From IMG/VR virus record IMGVR_UViG_3300031669_000182, positions 1 through 28,269 of that record: a stretch of 28,269 nt of DNA. One strand, written 5' to 3'. A program made the position numbers and the translations under genes. The notes beneath the pieces are model-generated. The model did not search any database, had not been told where the DNA came from, and was given only the letters and a program-made list of their open reading frames with translations. Origin of the DNA: a virus. This document shows, one piece after another, positions 2,293 through 28,269 of the stretch; position 1 is the first letter of the stretch; the number at the start of each line of letters is the position of its first letter.

Positions 2293-4506
2293 ATGTCTAT
2301 CAAAAAAAAAGTTGATAAGAAATATCAGAGCGAGCTAGCTGCGCTAAAAAAAAATGTAGAACGCACCGTATCAGGCTGGCGCGAGAATGTCGATAGATTC
2401 CACAAATTCCAGAAATTTCTTTTCAAGACAGCAATTACGCCGACCGACGAATCTGCACTCAATACAGCACAAAAACCAATACTTGAATTCAATATCACGA
2501 ATGCGCCGGTCTCTAGATTATGTGGTGAGTTTAGCAAGCAAGAACCCAGTATTAACGTCATGTCAGAGTTTGGCGCTAAGATTGACCCGCAATTATTAGA
2601 AGTGATTGAAGGTCATTTACGTCATATTATTTTTGAGTCTAAGAATCACAACACACAGTATATGGCTTATCGCGATTCGTTATCTGGCGGATTTTTTAAT
2701 TTTAAAGTATGGACGGAATACGCGCATGAAATGAGCTTTGACCAGGTCATAAAATTTGGCAGAACATACAATGCAACGATGACTTTTTATGACCCTATGG
2801 CAAAGGAAGTTGACAAGTCAGATGCGGAATTTTGTTTTGAGATATTCCCCATGGATAAAGAGCAATTTAAGCGTGATTATCCATGGATTCCAGTAGACAG
2901 CTTGACATACTTAAAGCTCGATAATGATTTTAGTTGGTCGTATAAAAACCAAGATCAATATGTGGTTATTTTAGTCGATTACTACAAAAAGATAAAAACA
3001 AAAAAAATGATTGTAAAACTTGCAGATAATCAAGTGATGGACGCGAATGATTATGAAGAATTTTTGGAGCAATGGGCATTACAGGGATTAACGGCGCAAC
3101 CGCCAATTGTCGTTGAAGAGCGAGAGAGTGAATTTACAAAAATCGGACGTTATCGTTTTATAGAAAATAATGTCGTTGAATACGAAGAAATCGAATCAAA
3201 GTACTTGCCATTAATTTTTGGAGACGGTGATTCTGCAATATTGAAAGAAGATTCATCATCCACACTTGAGCAATTTACAAAACCCTATATTTTTCATGCT
3301 GAAGGCTTGCAGCGTATGACGAACTTCGCGGGTCAAATGATCGCGAACGACTTTGAAAACATGGTGATGAATAAATTCATGTTGCCAGAAGAGGCATTGC
3401 CAACGGATGAAGACGCAATCACCGCATGGACAACTCCGCAAAAAGCAGACGTGCTTATTTACAAAGCATTATACGATGGCAATCCAGATCAGCAATTGCC
3501 AGGGCCTCAACCTGTTCCACGCGTTGGATTACCACCTGAGGTGATTACTACATTCAATAATTCAATGAATTTATTGCAAGCCATTCTTGGCTCTTATGAT
3601 GCATCGCTTGCAACGGGCAATAATGAGGTATCAGGTAAAGCAATCGTGGAATCTGCAACACTATCAAATGCAGCAGCAATGCCATACATTGCGAATTACA
3701 TGCAAACATTAACGCGGGTTGCAATCGTCTTGGTGGATTGGATGCCACGTTATTACAAGACGCCTCGCACTATTCCAGTGATTAACAAAGAAGGTAAAAG
3801 AGACTTTGTTAAGATCAACGGTGATGAGGGTATTGATTTTAACTACGATAGTAATCAATTAAGTGTGCGCGTTGAGGCTGGCGTTAACTTTGCAATTGCT
3901 AAAAATCAGGCGTTAGAGCAATTGACGATGTTGATGAAAGTGTCTGAAGAGTTTGCAGCATTCATGCAAGAAGTCGGACTTGAAACATTGCTTGATAATA
4001 TCGACTTTAGAAATGCTGACGCTCTGAAAGATAAAGTACAAGAATGGCAAGAAATGAAGAAGAAGCAGAAAGAGCAGCAACCAGATCCAGAGATGATGAA
4101 AGCGCAGGCAATCCAGCAACAGCAACAGCAACAATTTGCGATTGAGCAAGCGAAGTTAAAGAACGAAGAAACATTGACAGAGATTAAAGCGCAAGAGTTA
4201 GCAGCTAAGTCTATGTTAGACACCGAGCAACTTATTATTGATAAAGAGAAACTCGAAAATGAGAAGCTTTCTATCTTGCAAAAGTCTGGCGAATCTCAAG
4301 AAAAAATGGCAGCGAGCGTGAAAAAGGCAGAAGCAGAAGAGGCGCGTGCTGCGGCAGATTTAGAGATTAAACATGCGAGTTTGCATCTAGACGCGCAAAC
4401 TCGCGGGCATACACAGGCAATAGACGTGGCCAAGCATCATCATGACGTGAATAAACATGAAGAACAAATGAGACAATCAAGCAATCAATCAGAGGAGATA
4501 GAATAA
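2293..4506 (+). CDS. Portal protein, P22 gp1-like
   Basis: Forms the dodecameric portal ring at one capsid vertex through which DNA is packaged and ejected. The product is 737 aa, close to P22 portal (725 aa), and follows terminase directly. The ATG at 2293 was chosen because AAGGAT lies 7 bases upstream; an in-frame TTG at 2275 has no ribosome site. The N-terminal two thirds is a mixed alpha/beta body with an acidic middle. From about residue 590 it becomes a long charged helical region with a poly-Gln run and Lys/Glu-rich repeats, as expected for the extended P22-type barrel. The His-rich end (KHHHDVNKHEE) is unusual. The stop overlaps the next start (TAATG). Confidence 0.85.
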   Translation: MSIKKKVDKKYQSELAALKKNVERTVSGWRENVDRFHKFQKFLFKTAITPTDESALNTAQKPILEFNITNAPVSRLCGEFSKQEPSINVMSEFGAKIDPQLLEVIEGHLRHIIFESKNHNTQYMAYRDSLSGGFFNFKVWTEYAHEMSFDQVIKFGRTYNATMTFYDPMAKEVDKSDAEFCFEIFPMDKEQFKRDYPWIPVDSLTYLKLDNDFSWSYKNQDQYVVILVDYYKKIKTKKMIVKLADNQVMDANDYEEFLEQWALQGLTAQPPIVVEERESEFTKIGRYRFIENNVVEYEEIESKYLPLIFGDGDSAILKEDSSSTLEQFTKPYIFHAEGLQRMTNFAGQMIANDFENMVMNKFMLPEEALPTDEDAITAWTTPQKADVLIYKALYDGNPDQQLPGPQPVPRVGLPPEVITTFNNSMNLLQAILGSYDASLATGNNEVSGKAIVESATLSNAAAMPYIANYMQTLTRVAIVLVDWMPRYYKTPRTIPVINKEGKRDFVKINGDEGIDFNYDSNQLSVRVEAGVNFAIAKNQALEQLTMLMKVSEEFAAFMQEVGLETLLDNIDFRNADALKDKVQEWQEMKKKQKEQQPDPEMMKAQAIQQQQQQQFAIEQAKLKNEETLTEIKAQELAAKSMLDTEQLIIDKEKLENEKLSILQKSGESQEKMAASVKKAEAEEARAAADLEIKHASLHLDAQTRGHTQAIDVAKHHHDVNKHEEQMRQSSNQSEEIE

Positions 4507-21898: not shown

Positions 21899-22087
21899 TT
21901 AAATAGAATTTTTGAATACATATTTTCCAAATGTAGTCCCTCTGAATTTAATAGCGCAACTTGCGTGTTGTAATCTCCATTTAATTCCGCCAATTCTTTC
22001 TCGTGATGGAATTATCTCAAAATGACCGTCTCTTTTTTTAACTAGTTTTTTGCACCTATAACATATACCTGGATATTCATTTCTCAT
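21899..22087 (-). CDS. Small putative zinc-binding protein
   Basis: A 62-aa protein at the distal end of the leftward block. It contains YPGICYRC near the N-terminus (CxxC), GHFEII, and WRLQHASCAI followed by FRGT. The CxxC plus His/Cys arrangement suggests a single zinc ribbon/knuckle; small phage proteins with the order PGxCYRC, GHFE, WxxQHxxC are known to me as hypotheticals. The ribosome site is weak (AAG about 10 bases upstream). Function unknown, perhaps nucleic-acid binding. Confidence 0.6.
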   Translation of the reverse strand: MRNEYPGICYRCKKLVKKRDGHFEIIPSRERIGGIKWRLQHASCAIKFRGTTFGKYVFKNSI

Positions 22088-22150
22088 TATTAAATTCTTA
22101 TCAGTTAAAGTTGAGTTATTAAATTGTAAATAGTTACATTATTATTAATA

Positions 22151-22294
22151 TTATCCATTGCCATTGTCATTGCCATAGCCATTTCCAGAGCCATTGCCAT
22201 AGCCATAAGAGCCAGCAGAGCCAGAGCCATCGCAAGAGCCATTGCCATAGCCATAGCCATCGCCATAGTCAAAATCGTTATTTACTTCGGCCAT
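22151..22294 (-). CDS. Gly-X repeat protein, short paralogue (47 aa)
   Basis: Starts MAEVNNDFDYG and then consists almost wholly of X-Gly dipeptides (YGDGYGYGNG, later GYGNDNGNG) encoded by GGCNAT-type hexamers. Its first residues match the neighbouring 87-aa gene (MAEVNNNSDF), so the two are tandem paralogues, and it starts 15 bases after that gene's stop with GGA upstream. No Cys-based motif; function unknown. The repeats are degenerate in the variable residue (Tyr, Asn, Ser, Asp), which suggests expansion by slippage under retained reading frame. Confidence 0.5.
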   Translation of the reverse strand: MAEVNNDFDYGDGYGYGNGSCDGSGSAGSYGYGNGSGNGYGNDNGNG

Positions 22295-22546
22295 AATTTA
22301 TCCAGAATATTATCCATCGCCATCGCCATCGCCCTCGCCAGATCCACACGCAGAGCCATTGCCATTGCCATTGCCATTGTCATTGCCGGAGCCATCGCCA
22401 TCGCCATTGCCATTGCCATTGCCATTGCGATGGCCATTGCCATTGCCATAGCCACCACCATTGCCACCACCATTGCCATAACCATAGCCATTGTCATAGC
22501 CATGGCCATAGCCATGGCCATAGCCATTGCCAGAGCCATAGCTAAA
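22154..22546. repeat. GCCATN hexanucleotide repeat tracts
   Basis: Two imperfect arrays (22154-22262 and 22313-22546) of the 6-mer GCCATN, with variants such as GCCAGA and ACCACC, separated by the non-repeated start region of the short paralogue. Confidence 0.85.
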
Positions 22547-22573
22547 GTCAGAATTGTTATTTACTTCTGCCAT
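22310..22573 (-). CDS. Gly-X repeat protein, long paralogue (87 aa)
   Basis: Begins MAEVNNNSDFSYG and continues as about 35 X-Gly units, X being Tyr, His, Asn, Ser, Asp or Gly, to the C-terminus. Its start lies inside the last codons of the DUF6948-like gene in another frame (13-base overlap), so it is probably translated by coupling. Alternating Gly with polar/aromatic residues would give an extended or disordered chain. The overlap, the shared MAEVNN start and the polar-only choice of X favour this frame over the Ala/Met frame. Function unknown. Confidence 0.55.
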   Translation of the reverse strand: MAEVNNNSDFSYGSGNGYGHGYGHGYDNGYGYGNGGGNGGGYGNGNGHRNGNGNGNGDGDGSGNDNGNGNGNGSACGSGEGDGDGDG

Positions 22574-22920
22574 ATTTTTACGCTTTTAATGCTTAATCTA
22601 GCACTTTCAGTGCAATCTAAAATTTCGATTGCATTGAGTAATTCTACGCGATCAACTTCGCACGGAAATAAGCAATTATCCGGATCTTTAACGCCTTCCA
22701 TCGCGAGTTGAGATAGTGACGCTGCACCCGACCATTTCCAAAGCCGTCTAGCATTATGCAGCACTACTTCTTGACCATTTCGTGATTGCAATTCTCCAGC
22801 AAACACACCCGCTGAATAAGTTCTCACAATGCAGTATCTCCCATTCTCATTTGTTACTTTATCGCCTTGTAATAATTGAATTAATTGCATTACATCTTTT
22901 AACTTCATTTCTTCTAACAT
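22561..22920 (-). CDS. DUF6948-like hypothetical protein
   Basis: A 119-aa protein starting after GGAG (minus strand, 7-8 bases upstream). It has an N-terminal helix (MKLKDVMQLIQLLQGD), then YCIVRTYSAGVFAGEL, VVLHNARRLWKWSGAASLSQLA, and a final strand/helix with CTESARLSIKSVKIW. I recognise the RTYSAGVFAGEL and ARRLW...GAxSLSQLA pattern as that of DUF6948 proteins seen in phages; this is from memory. Its N-terminal MLEEMKLKDVMQLI resembles MLENITLNDIVKLL of the gene at 24355, suggesting a shared origin of the two N-termini. Biochemical function is unknown. Confidence 0.65.
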   Translation of the reverse strand: MLEEMKLKDVMQLIQLLQGDKVTNENGRYCIVRTYSAGVFAGELQSRNGQEVVLHNARRLWKWSGAASLSQLAMEGVKDPDNCLFPCEVDRVELLNAIEILDCTESARLSIKSVKIWQK

Positions 22921-22941
22921 TGAATTGCTCCTTTTTATTTT

Positions 22942-23148
22942 CTAATTAACTTTCTCAACTTTCGTTTTTGCTGTCTCGGGATCAAAATGCTTGTTATATA
23001 GTAAATCAATCGCTCTAACGACAATTCGAGATGCGTTTTCTTCGTACAATTCTTGCAATGATTTTAATTGCATCGTTGCAAAGCCAGATGCTCTTAGAGA
23101 AATAGTTTTATCTGCTATTTTTTGCATGTGGCTTGCTTTTTTACTCAT
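22942..23148 (-). CDS. Small ribbon-helix-helix-like protein
   Basis: A 68-aa protein with a strong ribosome site (GAAGGAG) before the ATG. The segment KTISLRASGF could be the DNA-contacting strand, followed by two helices (QLKSLQELYE and ASRIVVRAIDLLYNKHF) with the S-R-x-V-x-R-A-x-x-x-L pattern of ribbon-helix-helix proteins. If so, it would bind DNA as a dimer and could regulate the repeat cassette around it. Assignment is tentative. Confidence 0.5.
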   Translation of the reverse strand: MSKKASHMQKIADKTISLRASGFATMQLKSLQELYEENASRIVVRAIDLLYNKHFDPETAKTKVEKVN

Positions 23149-23182
23149 TTTTTTTTACTCCTTCTTGATGAATTGTTATATT

Positions 23183-23450
23183 CTTTTAAGTTTTTAAGTT
23201 TTTAAGTTTTTAAGTTTCTAAAAAATTAATGCCAGATTTTTCATGCAAGGCTCTGGCAAACCTTTCGGAATGGAATCACCCTGGCATGATTGAATCAAAA
23301 CGGTATTTTATCATCAATGAACTTATTAGCAGACGCATCATGAGGCTTAGTAGCATTATCCTGCTTATACTTCTCTGATCTATCAACTATATAATCTTTC
23401 ACGGCTGACTTATCAGGATAACCATTGATGCCTTTTTGCGTATATATCTG
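23183..23450 (-). repeat. Duplicated segment, copy 1 (3' end and terminator of the DUF669-like gene)
   Basis: About 85% identical by eye to 24719-24967. It holds the last ~50 codons, stop, terminator hairpin and A/T-rich leader of the ssDNA-binding protein gene. Copy 1 has four AAGTTTTT units (about 23188-23217) where copy 2 has fewer. Confidence 0.85.
23222..23257 (-). terminator. Leftward terminator, copy 1
   Basis: On the minus strand GCCAGA (23257-23252) pairs with TCTGGC (23236-23231) across a 15-nt loop, followed by ATTAATTTTTT. The same element recurs at 24749-24775. Confidence 0.45.
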
Positions 23451-23480
23451 ATCGTTAATCCAGACATAGCCCACGATCAT
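23295..23480 (-). CDS. Duplicated SSB-type tail, 61-aa ORF
   Basis: From about residue 11 (QIYTQKGINGY) to the end this ORF copies the C-terminus of the ssDNA-binding protein at 24813 (QIYTQKSNNGY), with about 75-80% identity and no stop, and keeps the FIDDKIPF tip. Its ATG overlaps the stop of the preceding repeat ORF (TGATG), so translation by coupling is possible. The DNA-binding domain is missing, leaving a free SSB-like tail. It may be a decaying fragment or a functional tail peptide; conserved frame and conservative changes favour the latter only mildly. Confidence 0.5.
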   Translation of the reverse strand: MIVGYVWINDQIYTQKGINGYPDKSAVKDYIVDRSEKYKQDNATKPHDASANKFIDDKIPF

Positions 23481-23692
23481 CACAACCACGACCGCGACCG
23501 CGACCGCGACCACGACAGCGACCACGATCGCGACCGCGACCGCGACCGCGACAACGACAGCCACAGCGACCGCGACCGCGACCGCGACAACGACAGCGAC
23601 CCTGATCGTGACAACGACCGCGACAGCGACAGCGACAGCGATCGCGACAACGACCATGCCCACTCATTAGATTTCAAGACACATATATTCAT
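23480..23692 (-). CDS. Repeat ORF 4: MNI leader plus Ser-X dipeptides
   Basis: A 70-aa ORF opening [14 protein letters not shown], then Ser alternating with Leu, Arg, Gly or Trp to the end. Its first 14 residues equal those of repeat ORF 1 and its DNA is identical to that copy for about 50 bases around the start. Its ATG overlaps the stop of repeat ORF 3 (ATGA), and its stop overlaps the next ORF. All three minus frames are open through the hexamers, so the frame rests on the conserved leader and chaining; a Gly/Arg/Cys frame from 23667 is the alternative. Confidence 0.4.
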   Translation of the reverse strand: MNICVLKSNEWAWSLSRSLSLSLSRSLSRSGSLSLSRSRSRSLWLSLSRSRSRSRSWSLSWSRSRSRSWL

Positions 23693-23769
23693 TTCGTTAA
23701 TCCAGACATAGCCCACGACCGAGAGCACGACCGCGACCACCCATTAGCTCTAAACATTACTATATTCAT
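23689..23769 (-). CDS. Repeat ORF 3: short, contracted unit
   Basis: A 26-aa [14 protein letters not shown] then SRSCSRSW and AMSGLTK. It keeps the leader with conservative changes (Lys to Arg, Ser to Ala, Leu to Phe) but has only a few Ser-X units, so it looks like a contracted array. AGGG lies 8 bases before its ATG, and it starts 5 bases after the stop of repeat ORF 2. Confidence 0.35.
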
Positions 23770-23774
23770 TTTGT

Positions 23775-23990
23775 TTACCCTGACCATGACCGTGACAGTG
23801 ACCCTGACCCTGACCATGACCGTGACAGTGACCGTGACCATGACCATGACCGTGACCCTGACAGTGACCGTGATCCTGACCATGACCGTGACCCTGACCC
23901 TGACCCTGACCAGGGCAGCGACCCTGATCGTGACAGTGACCCTGGCCGTGACAGTAACCACCCATTAGATTTTAGTAATACTATATTCAT
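23775..23990 (-). CDS. Repeat ORF 2: MNI leader plus Ser-X dipeptides
   Basis: A 71-aa [17 protein letters not shown] followed by about 28 Ser-X units (X = Arg, Gly, Leu, Trp). The ribosome-site-like AGGG forms part of the last codons of repeat ORF 1, whose stop is 5 bases before this ATG. The hexamers here are mostly GACCNT and GACAGT on the + strand, unlike the GACCGC type of ORF 4. A Gly/His/Gln frame (23750-23965) is also open. Confidence 0.4.
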
Positions 23991-23995
23991 TTTGT

Positions 23996-24271
23996 TTACC
24001 CTGGCCATGACCGTGACCCTGACAGTGACGCTGACCCTGACCATGGCCGTGACAGTGACCATGACCGTGACAGTGACAGTGACCCTGACCCAGACCACGA
24101 CCGAGACCCTGACCGCGACCACAACCGCGACCGCGATCGCGACCACGACCGCGATCGCGACAACGACAGCGACAGCGATCGCGACAACGACAGCCACAGC
24201 GACCGCGACAGCGACAGCGACCACGACCACGACCATGCCCACTCATTAGATTTCAAGACACATATATTCAT
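23996..24271 (-). CDS. Repeat ORF 1: MNI leader plus Ser-X dipeptides, head of chain
   Basis: A 91-aa ORF starting [14 protein letters not shown] with a real-looking ribosome site (AGGA about 8 bases upstream), the best initiation signal in the array. The rest is Ser alternating with Trp, Leu, Arg and Gly. It lies after a 15-bp hairpin that separates it from the gene at 24355. The alternative frame from 24246 gives Gly/Arg/Cys/His repeats but has no ribosome site. No known family; membrane or DNA interaction cannot be judged. Confidence 0.42.
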   Translation of the reverse strand: MNICVLKSNEWAWSWSWSLSLSRSLWLSLSRSLSLSLSRSRSWSRSRSRLWSRSGSRSWSGSGSLSLSRSWSLSRPWSGSASLSGSRSWPG

Positions 24272-24305
24272 TTCGTTAATTCCTAAAATCTGTATATGAC
24301 TCTTA

Positions 24306-24344
24306 AAATATCGACATTAAAATAAGAAATTAATGTCGATATTT
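24306..24344 (-). terminator. Perfect 15-bp hairpin before the repeat array
   Basis: AAATATCGACATTAA (24306-24320) pairs perfectly with TTAATGTCGATATTT (24330-24344) around a 9-nt loop. On the minus strand it lies between the stop of the gene at 24355 and the first repeat ORF, ending in ATATTTT. It may terminate or attenuate leftward transcription into the array. Confidence 0.55.
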
Positions 24345-24354
24345 GCTTAAAAGC

Positions 24355-24708
24355 TTATTTTTGTTCCGTAGGAACGCTAAAATTCCAAATTGTTGCATCA
24401 ACAATAGCGCTGCGATTAACGATAACAGAATTCACGAACGGCTCGATTTCATTTAATGTTCCTGTTTTTAAAGCATCATAAAATCTACCAGAATCCGCAA
24501 CCCAAGCAGCTTTTTCTAGCACTAACTCTTTATCATTTACAATACTCACACGACCAATTAAGTGCATTGTGACTGTACGGATAAAATAGATATTTCCAAT
24601 TTGCCAGACTTTAAATTCATCTGATGATTCATTATGACTATTGCCTTGACGTACTGATAATGAATTAAGCAATTTAACAATATCATTTAAAGTAATATTT
24701 TCTAACAT
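24355..24708 (-). CDS. Conserved hypothetical protein with IRTVTMHLIGR motif
   Basis: A 117-aa protein with GAGGT before its ATG. After an N-terminal helix (LNDIVKLLNSL) comes YFIRTVTMHLIGRVSIV, ELVLEKAAWVADSGRF and a C-terminal VNRSAIVDATIWNF. The N-terminus matches that of the 22561 gene, and the strand order (RT...G-x-hydrophobic, then hydrophobic-ALV-A-A/R-x-W) is parallel, so the two may be distant paralogues. From memory, such proteins co-occur with DUF6948 genes in phages. Function unknown. Confidence 0.6.
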   Translation of the reverse strand: MLENITLNDIVKLLNSLSVRQGNSHNESSDEFKVWQIGNIYFIRTVTMHLIGRVSIVNDKELVLEKAAWVADSGRFYDALKTGTLNEIEPFVNSVIVNRSAIVDATIWNFSVPTEQK

Positions 24709-24718
24709 TTTTATACCT

Positions 24719-24967
24719 CTTTTAAGTTTAAGTTTTTAAGAAATTAATGCCAGATTTTTCATGCAAGGCTCTGGCAAACCTTTCGGAAGGGAATCACCCT
24801 AGCATGATTAAGTTAAAATGGTATTTTATCATCAATGAACTCATTAACAGGTGCATCATGAGATTTAGTAATATTATCTTCCTTATACTTCTCTGATACA
24901 TCAACCATATAATCTTTTACAGCCGATTTATCGGAATAACCGTTATTGCTTTTTTGTGTATATATTT
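24719..24967 (-). repeat. Duplicated segment, copy 2 (parental)
   Basis: Counterpart of 23183-23450; it lies in its natural place at the 3' end of the DUF669-like gene and is therefore the likely parent. Confidence 0.85.
24741..24775 (-). terminator. Leftward terminator, copy 2
   Basis: GCCAGA and TCTGGC pair (24749-24754 with 24770-24775) across 15 nt downstream of the ssDNA-binding gene, followed on the minus strand by ATTAATTTCTT. Confidence 0.45.
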
Positions 24968-25265
24968 GGACTTGTCCACATTTATACATGCAATCTTCCG
25001 CTGATAAATTGCCAGCTTCATACTTTTCTAGTAATCCAGCTGTCTCAGCAAAGTGTTTAAGCTTGAATGGCATAGATTCTAGCAGATAGTCAAAAAGAAA
25101 TTTTTCTATACCCAAATTATCATAGACTTTTAAATTTAACTCAATCATTTCATTTCCAGCCTTTGATGTTTTATTGACTGCGTTAACAATCTCAAATGCA
25201 TAAACGCCTTCTTTAATTAAATTCATCTCTTGTAATTCTTCATTGCTTTTTGGGGTAAAGCGCAT
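24813..25265 (-). CDS. ssDNA-binding protein, DUF669-like, with SSB-type tip
   Basis: A 150-aa protein likely to coat single-stranded DNA for the recombinase encoded just upstream. The body has the DUF669 pattern: EGVYAFEIVNAVNKTSKAGNEMIELNL, then FLFDYLLESMPFKLKHFAETAGL. The C-terminus is an acidic, flexible tail ending FIDDKIPF, like the DDDIPF tip by which bacterial SSB recruits partner proteins. Its ribosome site (AAAGGAG) is formed by the last codons of the ATPase gene, whose stop is 2 bases away. The last ~50 codons are duplicated at 23295. Confidence 0.72.
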   Translation of the reverse strand: MRFTPKSNEELQEMNLIKEGVYAFEIVNAVNKTSKAGNEMIELNLKVYDNLGIEKFLFDYLLESMPFKLKHFAETAGLLEKYEAGNLSAEDCMYKCGQVQIYTQKSNNGYSDKSAVKDYMVDVSEKYKEDNITKSHDAPVNEFIDDKIPF

Positions 25266-25267
25266 AT

Positions 25268-26113
25268 TTACTCTCCTTTGATTTGCTTATTTAGATGATC
25301 AATACATTTTTGAATGATGTCGGTATTCATTTCAACAAATGAACTTGATTGGGATTTTTCGAGCCATTTTTGCCATACTTCGTCGGGGATTTTTAATAAA
25401 TCTATCAAACGATTCAATTCGGTTATTTGCTCGACAGTTGCCAGAATCTCTGGCACACAATCCTTTTCCAAGATATCTTTGCCGTAACGTTTTGCTATTT
25501 CTTCATAGCTGAATGTAAAGGTATCACCATCGGGAAATGCCTCTATTCGTGATTTCCTAATTATTCCCGCTCTTGTTTTTCCTCGTTTTTGTATCTCAAA
25601 GACTAAATCAAACAAATAATCTAGTTTTTTCCAGCCATCGAATGTGTTACCCAACACCGATAAGTTTGCACCATATTCACGCTTGGCATGGCACGTGACG
25701 ACAACATTCATTTCAAGGCGAAGAAGCAAATTAAATAATTGCTTAACCTTCTTTCCGCTATGCGCGTAATGTCTACCGAACTCGGAACCTACTTCTCTTT
25801 CTGACTTTTCCAACAAATCATTATAAAGAATGGTAAACGGGTCAATTATCAATGTTTTATATCCATGCTTCTCACTTAATAGCGAAACTACTTCTGTCAT
25901 GACCTCATCAAAATCGGTCGTGCTAAAAACAGCGCCACCGTTGGCATTGATTAGATCAACATATTGATCATTACAACTGCCTTTTTCGGTATCAATTAAA
26001 TAGACGGATGGAAAGTTAATCGCTGCCGTGGTCTTGCCAGCACCAGCTTCACCGTAAAACAAAGCCTTTAATCTCTTTTCCGTTTTCTCTGGTTTTTTAG
26101 CTCTTAATGTCAT
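25268..26113 (-). CDS. RecA-fold recombination ATPase, Sak4/AAA_24-like
   Basis: A 281-aa ATPase for single-strand annealing or strand exchange in phage recombination. Walker A is GEAGAGKTT near residue 21, Walker B YKTLIIDPF near 85, and NVVVTCHAKRE is the sensor-like strand. The LIDTEKG motif following the Walker A helix is typical of phage AAA_24 proteins. The C-terminal 60 residues are helical and Lys/Glu-rich. Start from GAGG 8 bases upstream; it overlaps the Cro-like gene by 17 bases and is directly followed by the ssDNA-binding protein, the usual partner in such operons. Confidence 0.8.
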   Translation of the reverse strand: MTLRAKKPEKTEKRLKALFYGEAGAGKTTAAINFPSVYLIDTEKGSCNDQYVDLINANGGAVFSTTDFDEVMTEVVSLLSEKHGYKTLIIDPFTILYNDLLEKSEREVGSEFGRHYAHSGKKVKQLFNLLLRLEMNVVVTCHAKREYGANLSVLGNTFDGWKKLDYLFDLVFEIQKRGKTRAGIIRKSRIEAFPDGDTFTFSYEEIAKRYGKDILEKDCVPEILATVEQITELNRLIDLLKIPDEVWQKWLEKSQSSSFVEMNTDIIQKCIDHLNKQIKGE

Positions 26114-26378
26114 TTGATCGCCTCTTAAAAGTTATTTTCATATCAGCACTAAATATATCAGGTCGTAACTTGTATGGCTCAACACGATATACTTTACATA
26201 TTTCCAAAACGTACCGTATCGGAACCTTGGCATACATTCGCTCCCAATGGCTGACACAGGTGTAATGACAGCCTATTGATTTTGCGAACGCAGCTCCCGT
26301 TCCGCAGCTATCAATTAAATCAGAGATAATGGCAGCTCCATTCGGATTCCCCACATTTCCCACTTTTCTTTTTCTCAT
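26097..26378 (-). CDS. Cro/YdaS-like HTH transcriptional regulator
   Basis: A 93-aa DNA-binding protein. The core reads GTGAAFAKSIGCHYTCVSHW then VPIRYVLEICKV and YKLRPDIF, the Cro/YdaS arrangement of a helix-turn-helix followed by the LRPD signature. A basic N-terminal arm (RKRKVGN) and a basic C-terminal tail extend it. The ATG at 26378 follows GGAG by 7 bases; a TTG three bases earlier is not needed. It heads the recombination operon, so it may act on the palindrome at 26907 and control leftward early transcription. Confidence 0.7.
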   Translation of the reverse strand: MRKRKVGNVGNPNGAAIISDLIDSCGTGAAFAKSIGCHYTCVSHWERMYAKVPIRYVLEICKVYRVEPYKLRPDIFSADMKITFKRRSNDIKS

Positions 26379-27379: not shown

Positions 27380-28269
27380 TTATGTCTCAATCATTGGTGA
27401 ATAATTACTCTCTAGCCCGAATGTCCACCCGATTGCTTCTTTAGCATTAGTGAAAGACGGAGGAACTCGTAACCAATATATTTTTATAGACCCATCTGGC
27501 TCAGGTGTAGAATTATTAACTTTAACCATCACCATTGGTTCATCGTTTTTTATTTCTTTCTTGTAAAGCTCGCCATATTCATCTTTGTGAATTAATTTAG
27601 CGCCAGAATCAATTAGGTATTTTCCTGCTTCATCTCGATCATACTGATCCAGCATGACGCGTCTTATTTCAGAATTATCTTCATCTTCTATCATCTTCAC
27701 GGTAATTAATTCTGGATGTTTAACCACTAACTCTGGAACGCGAACCCCATGCACAGCATAAATAGCCCAACCATCTGGATACATGACTGCTGCATCGGTT
27801 AATGAATGTAATCGGCCTCTATCATCTCGATTTAAAAGTGAATGACGCTCAGATACCCAGCATATATTTTCATGCGGCAAGAACCATCCACTATGACGTG
27901 CTAATTCGATTAGTCCTTTTAATTTTTCAGTTTGTTCTGTTAAATTTAATTCAGTTCTAAAAAAATCATAAAATCCTAACCACCCAGCATCATGCGCTCC
28001 ATAGCCGGAATCCCACACGGAAGCCGCCACAGAATCCCCCACGGAAGCCCCCACGGAAGCCCTCACGGAAGCCCTCACGGAAGCCCTCACGGAAGCCCTC
28101 ACGGAATCCCCCACGGAATCACTCACGGAATCCCCCACGGAATCCCTCACGGAATCCCTCACGGAAGCCCCCACGGAATCCCCCACGGAAGCCACCACGG
28201 AAGCCCTCACGGAAGCCCTCACGGAAGTCATCACGGAAGTCATCACGGAATCCACCACGGAATCCCACA
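27380..28269 (-). CDS. DUF6745-like protein with tetrapeptide-repeat N-terminus, 5' end outside window
   Basis: The frame is open to the window edge, so the GTG near 28258 is not the true start. The visible N-terminal ~85 residues are a tandem tetrapeptide of the form (R/G/V/M)-(A/D/T)-S-V. Then comes SGYGAHDAGWLGFYDFF, HSGWFLPHENICWVSERHS, NRDDRGRLHS, and YPDGWAIYAVHGVRVPE, VMLDQYDRDEAGKYL, DEYGELYKKE, VKVNNSTPEPDGS and AIGWTFGL, the DUF6745 pattern I recall from many bacterial and phage hypotheticals. Biochemical role is unknown. It is convergent with the + strand coiled-coil gene. Confidence 0.72.
   Translation of the reverse strand, partial: WDSVVDSVMTSVMTSVRASVRASVVASVGDSVGASVRDSVRDSVGDSVSDSVGDSVRASVRASVRASVRASVGASVGDSVAASVWDSGYGAHDAGWLGFYDFFRTELNLTEQTEKLKGLIELARHSGWFLPHENICWVSERHSLLNRDDRGRLHSLTDAAVMYPDGWAIYAVHGVRVPELVVKHPELITVKMIEDEDNSEIRRVMLDQYDRDEAGKYLIDSGAKLIHKDEYGELYKKEIKNDEPMVMVKVNNSTPEPDGSIKIYWLRVPPSFTNAKEAIGWTFGLESNYSPMIET
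28024..28269 (-). repeat. 12-bp tandem repeat coding (x-x-S-V)n, runs off window
   Basis: About twenty copies of a 12-mer such as CTCACGGAAGCC, alternating GAAGCC/GAATCC and CTCACG/CCCACG versions. Array length is a multiple of three, so copy-number change keeps the frame. The array continues to the last base of the window. Confidence 0.88.

Follow-up and report, generated by a model that had tools for sequence, protein, structure and literature searches.

A putative two-part phage module: a predicted Sm-like protein and chained, coupled dipeptide-repeat genes

Organization of the locus

The window considered here is the whole of a 28,269-base linear IMG/VR contig from a tailed phage (portal phrog_156). 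On its minus strand, a Sak4-like AAA recombination ATPase (25268-26113; phrog_124, E 1.6e-20; Pfam AAA_24) is followed by a phage SSB (24813-25265; DUF669/phrog_378), gene A (24355-24708, 117 aa), an array of Ser-X ORFs, and a copy of the SSB 3' end. Beyond these come a 68-aa ORF, the gene for a DUF6948 protein (22561-22920), and a Gly-X array. No Rfam match to a structured RNA was found at 22000-25300, and promoter and terminator candidates in 22100-26200 were discarded, the scan signals being at shuffle level only. At the start of the contig, a large-terminase-like ORF (1-2097) harbors a LAGLIDADG-bearing intein (Pfam Intein_splicing, LAGLIDADG_3). Toward the other end lies a DUF6745 protein (27380-28258; Pfam match of 195 bits) that runs off the contig and whose N-terminal start is a third kind of array, with a 12-base unit and SVRASVRDSV repeats.

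The Ser-X array consists of four minus-strand ORFs that together span 24271-23480. ORF1 (23996-24271, 91 aa) has an AGGA ribosome site upstream, and its position and frame are common to 85 of 92 relatives. ORF2 (23775-23990, 71 aa) starts 5 nt past the ORF1 stop, and ORF3 (23689-23769, 26 aa), which has a short array, starts 5 nt past the ORF2 stop. ORF4 (23480-23692, 70 aa) overlaps ORF3 in an ATGA, and its own stop runs into the start of the SSB-tail ORF as TGATG. The junctions are all as given in the preliminary description, whose reading of the four ORFs as a coupled chain, here an operon, is supported. The leader DNA of ORF1 and ORF4 is identical at 39 of 39 nt, the remaining leader pairs agreeing at 27-30 of 39, and leader comparison places the window's leader in a subgroup with those of loci L021 (MNYAVLKANEW), L023, L026, and L034. 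An 83-nt spacer separates gene A from ORF1 (24272-24354; RNAfold -20.0 kcal/mol) and folds into a perfect 15-bp hairpin at 24306-24344, on the minus strand; in most relatives, stop and start overlap directly instead. At locus L047, a G+C-rich palindromic spacer has also been inserted.

The ORF that closes the chain (23295-23480, minus strand, 61 aa) carries a duplicate of the C-terminal half of the SSB. A local alignment of about 239 nt pairs 23212-23450 with 24730-24968, a region made up of the SSB 3' end and its downstream flank, with 83% identity over 154 nt. The copy retains an open frame and the DDKIPF tip, and the duplicated stretch includes the hairpin region downstream of SSB. Since no chain closed by an SSB tail was found among the gene A relatives examined, the SSB tail looks like a local rearrangement flanking the module, not a general part of it. 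The direct duplication of the SSB end brackets gene A and the arrays, as if the module had arrived with the duplication.

Gene A and its linkage to Ser-X ORFs

The preliminary description missed the obligatory upstream partner of the chain, gene A, along with its predicted Sm-like fold and the DUF6948 module. A single-sequence search returned 31 relatives of gene A, a profile search of IMG/VR returned 343 (79 loci kept), and GTDB contigs held 12; the family pattern is FIRTVT...LVLE.A.W.AD.GRF...NR..IVD. Linkage was counted over 92 distinct loci in which 90 nt or more of sequence follow gene A, all metagenomic, mutually related, and partly chosen by similarity. A Ser-X ORF follows gene A in 85 of these 92, with its start at -1 to +15 nt from the gene A stop in 74 of the loci and in an exact RTGA (ATGA or GTGA) overlap in 49. 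Starts use ATG or GTG, and several loci do without ATG. A period-6 array is found within 150 nt 3' of gene A at 68 of 81 loci, the expectation from upstream flanks being about 0.01 per locus. Gene A with Ser-X ORFs is a widespread and undescribed arrangement, of which the chain first flagged in this phage is one example. Arrays are missing at L058, L063, L115, L121, and L137; in L115 and L058, core function without the peptide might be seen.

Could the repeat instead be fused to gene A by a programmed frameshift? The Ser-X start lies mostly in the -1 frame but elsewhere at +2, +4, +7, +14, and other offsets, and because the offsets vary in this way between loci, translational coupling fits better. 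No fused gene A-repeat gene occurs among 95 loci. Near gene A, loci carry genes for helicase, RecT/Bet annealing protein, exonuclease, DNA polymerase, and integrase, which suggests an early role for the module. Locus L003 has a Pro/Ala/Arg-rich repeat and a GYGWVMDGLWMGYGWVME stretch near a related SSB (2531-2698, 3226-3756).

Chains of two to eight Ser-X ORFs, mostly joined by ATGA overlaps, are present at 21 of the 85 loci. Each such locus repeats a leader of its own: at L046 seven ORFs open with MSI[AV]IFERWVG, at L109 five open with MNISIISTIQ, and L088 and L089 use MRYL[FI][EV]G. The leader conservation noted in this phage extends far beyond it, relatives sharing the Ser-frame consensus M-N-x-A-[IV]-L-R-x-G-[FY]-D. 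The arrays themselves are fluid, as had been proposed. Hexamer types among relatives include NGG-TCT, -TCG, -TCA, -AGC, and -AGT, and array length changes fast between close relatives: insertions of 6, 60, and 12 nt separate the first arrays of L088 and L089, whose gene A is 98% identical, and indels of 54, 114, and 78 nt separate L120 from L122.

Coding frame of the repeats

Which frame of these arrays is read? Arrays of period 6 commonly stay open in more than one frame, and frame openness was therefore set aside as weak evidence of coding: at 85 loci, arrays are 80% open in frame +1 at 67 and in frame +2 at 51. For the same reason, one genome cannot decide the frame, and the earlier view that it was unsettled holds within this phage; across relatives, the comparison rules out chance and settles on the Ser frame. 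The dominant Ser codon in 119 arrays is TCG in 53, TCT in 32, AGC in 17, TCA in 15, and AGT in 2, and the partner residue X in each codon class is Arg (0.24-0.35), Trp (0.26-0.28), or Gly (0.14-0.33). A switch from TCN to AGC takes a double change and alters the residues of both other frames.

Far from accumulating stops, the Ser frame is depleted of TGA and TAG. NGA replaces NGG in 5% of the Arg and Gly codons of the arrays, and on that basis TGA should stand for TGG 43 times; it does so 7 times (P 5e-12, with codons taken as independent), and the slight bias toward openness that comes from choosing arrays with an ATG-started Ser ORF would hardly produce a sixfold loss. TAG is absent where at least 31 were expected. 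When the leaders of related phages are compared by codon position, differences fall at positions 1:2:3 in the ratio 1611:1196:2965 (560 pairs, not independent), a third-position excess in the Ser frame. Ser codon switching, stop depletion, and the third-position excess in leaders make a strong comparative case that the Ser-X ORFs are protein-coding, with codon-level constraint in the Ser frame.

Predicted fold of gene A and the DUF6948 module

Gene A has no Pfam match and none to other known families; NCBIfam matches lay far under the cut-offs and were ignored. AlphaFold2 models built from family alignments have a mean pLDDT of 89 for gene A and 84 for DUF6948. In a Foldseek search of the PDB, the best match to the gene A model (E 6.7e-4) is an Sm/LSm protein. 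By VIA-align, the model superimposes on archaeal SmAP1 with a Z of 9.8 over 70 residues at 2.0 A, and 50 of the 50 matches listed are Sm or LSm proteins. The matches listed for DUF6948 are likewise all Sm/LSm, with a Z of 7.7, values under 8 being in the tool's warning range. In a viral library, gene A also matches proteins that bear the name DUF6948 and one called Sm-like. Gene A and DUF6948 are thus predicted to share an Sm/LSm-like five-stranded barrel. At the sequence level, Pfam LSM gave no match to 28 gene A members at E 0.5, a PDB sequence search found no link between gene A and LSM, and hhalign of gene A to 31 archaeal LSM sequences scored 15.9, no better than shuffled columns (up to 22.2). 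DUF6948 is likewise tied to LSM by no sequence profile. Since an LSM sequence match is lacking, gene A is called Sm-like by fold and is not filed as a member of the LSM family.

Profile comparison identifies gene A as a remote homologue of DUF6948: the hhalign score is 40.6, against at most 15.5 in 20 shuffles, over an alignment that covers the N-terminal helix and first strands. The protein encoded at 22561-22920 scores above the curated cut-off for DUF6948 (PF22253; Pfam E 5.4e-31), which gene A misses. This gene is the core of a second module, module B, the gene A arrangement being module A. A Gly-X ORF of 87 aa (22310-22573, minus strand; MAEVNNNSDFSYGSGNGYG...) starts 10 nt before the DUF6948 stop codon, and a second, chained Gly-X ORF (22151-22294, minus strand, 47 aa) repeats the leader MAEVNN. 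A Gly-X ORF follows the DUF6948 gene in all relatives first found and in 78 of 80 in a larger set, with its start exactly 10 nt before the stop codon at 61 of those 78 loci. DUF6948 loci number 508 in all. The partner residue is Ser (32%), Tyr (25%), or Asp (24%), in a mix much alike for GGC, GGT, and GGG glycine and looser for GGA. The habit of chaining is common to module B too; at L013 (407-1328), four successive Gly-X ORFs with differing leaders come after the DUF6948 gene. Cultured carriers of module B include Iodobacter PhiPLPE, Pectobacterium Pappous and relatives, Chlorobiaceae CV-1-33, and Vibrio IKEMa6-1.

Like gene A, then, the DUF6948 proteins combine the predicted fold with a dipeptide-repeat ORF at their end, but their repeat is an acidic Gly-[Ser/Tyr/Asp], and its start lies inside the gene and not in an RTGA. 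The Ser-X peptides are rich in Arg (16%) and Trp (14%), with 17% K+R and 2% D+E, and have a mean net charge of about +9.2; gene A cores average -1.9. In module B, the cores average +1.0 and the Gly-X peptides -9.3. The contrast between the A and B cores is modest and shrinks with strict redundancy reduction, from P 3e-7 at 70% identity to P 0.013 at 50%. Module B is the same design as module A with the charges reversed. The idea that the two modules are mutual partners, joined by Arg-Tyr stickers, was rejected because they occur together in only 6 of 50 contigs.

A proposed function and its alternatives

What might such a module do? The array is best read as chained genes that code for proteins and not as a DNA element, each ORF supplying a leader of about ten residues and a probably disordered, low-complexity (Ser-[Arg/Trp/Gly/Leu])n peptide, positive and aromatic. 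The chain would be the downstream half of a two-part module with the gene A barrel as its upstream half, and the stop/start overlap would couple translation of the peptide to that of the gene A protein. Early in infection, the Sm-like protein may bind phage or host RNA or ssDNA, and the repeat peptide may act as a tail in trans, binding the oppositely charged core, the nucleic acid, or both. Such a peptide could modulate the binding of nucleic acid or draw complexes together into an RNP-like assembly, in the manner of the disordered tails of Hfq and of Sm and LSm proteins. Repeat and unit numbers would drift by hexamer slippage and unit duplication, a drift presumably tolerated because the function of the peptide rests on composition and not on exact sequence. 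That the module pairs an Sm-like core with coupled, disordered repeat peptides serving as its tail in trans is a reading that we hold with moderate confidence. More tentatively, modules A and B may represent a class of RNP devices in which an Sm-like core is served by a separate, chain-duplicated tail gene, in two charge-reversed versions, perhaps forming condensates with phage RNA or replication intermediates.

The closest precedent is E. coli Hfq, an Sm-fold core whose disordered acidic tail, opposite in charge to a patch on the core, binds at the basic rim in competition with RNA (PMC5606850). In module A, however, the tail is a separate coupled ORF, often chained and made of a strict dipeptide repeat, and gene A has no sequence match to Hfq or LSM. 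Among eukaryotic and archaeal Sm and LSm proteins, SmB/D1/D3 and LSm4 carry RG-rich tails. Here too a predicted barrel of this fold (Z up to 9.8 to SmAP1) is combined with Arg-rich dipeptide repeats, but the tail is unfused, phage-borne, and built of Ser-Arg/Trp/Gly instead of RG, with no detectable sequence homology. The SR/RS domains of eukaryotic splicing factors resemble the Ser-X peptides in their Ser-Arg dipeptides, in composition only; no RRM was found here, the other X residues are mostly Trp or Gly, and the origin is phage. The preliminary description knew of no system like the Ser-X chain, and open-access literature on hexamer repeats in phages, on condensates of dipeptide repeats, and on Sm-like proteins of phages likewise contained no description of the module; no mention of DUF6948 or DUF6745 was found there either.

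The peptides might alternatively be effectors that act on the host cell, whether as membrane-active peptides rich in Arg and Trp, as a toxin, or as a decoy against defence, with gene A as antidote or regulator. Small coupled gene pairs are the typical layout of toxin-antitoxin operons, and the cationic, Arg- and Trp-rich composition and the several chained copies would suit this role. However, the homologous module B has the same layout with acidic, Gly-rich peptides, which is hard to reconcile with one toxic mechanism; together with the extreme tolerance of array length and order and the lack of a match between gene A and any known family, this makes an effector role unlikely. Nor is it probable that the hexamer array works at the level of nucleic acid, with repeated sites in RNA or DNA that bind or titrate the Sm-like protein, the reading frame being a by-product. 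Short repeated RNA motifs are ligands of Sm and Hfq rings, the array is physically linked to an Sm-like gene, and ORF1 of the window has a strong hairpin ahead of it, but what is kept across phages is the Ser-X amino acids and not the hexamer, stops a single change away are avoided in the Ser frame, and start codons and leaders are retained.

The arrays mutate and expand fast, their other frames are often open too, and the window itself has a short ORF3 unit and a duplicated SSB tail, all of which would be expected of functionless slippage debris, tolerated at a permissive site 3' of gene A and open by virtue of composition. This is quite improbable given an array at the same spot in 85 of 92 loci, a leader and a start overlap that are both conserved, a depletion of stops at P ~1e-12, and an amino acid composition reached convergently from five Ser codons.

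The chance that the Gly/Arg/His frame is the coding one is very small. A chain in that frame does exist here, as was claimed (24246-23965, 23965-23750, and 23667-23455); it starts with ATG at 20 of 82 loci, and third-base variation is synonymous in it for TCT and TCG arrays, but in relatives it would give Gly-Leu, Gly-Arg, Gly-Gln, or Gly-Ala, is cut by stops at 22 of 85 loci (L022, L047, and L049, for instance), has no ATG start at most loci, and lacks the conserved leader, which sits in the Ser frame instead. Equally remote is the phase-variable cassette suggested at first: the arrays resemble contingency loci in their short tandem repeats and fast copy-number change, but there a change of copy number switches frame or promoter spacing, whereas a six-base unit, a multiple of three, lets arrays grow and shrink in frame, with all indels in the two closest pairs multiples of six, so that length varies and on/off switching is not expected.

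Implications

If the reading of an Sm-like core with coupled repeat peptides is correct, hundreds of uncharacterised phage genomes share a module whose nearest known parallels are the tails of Hfq and those, rich in Arg, of the spliceosomal Sm proteins. A class of short tandem repeats in phages, left as hypothetical in annotation or liable to be dismissed as junk, would be explained as well. The module would be a compact model from nature in which to study the role of low-complexity peptides, one in which composition is conserved, sequence is free, copy number varies among near-identical phages, and two opposite charges are represented. Module B is already open to testing, cultured phages being among its carriers.
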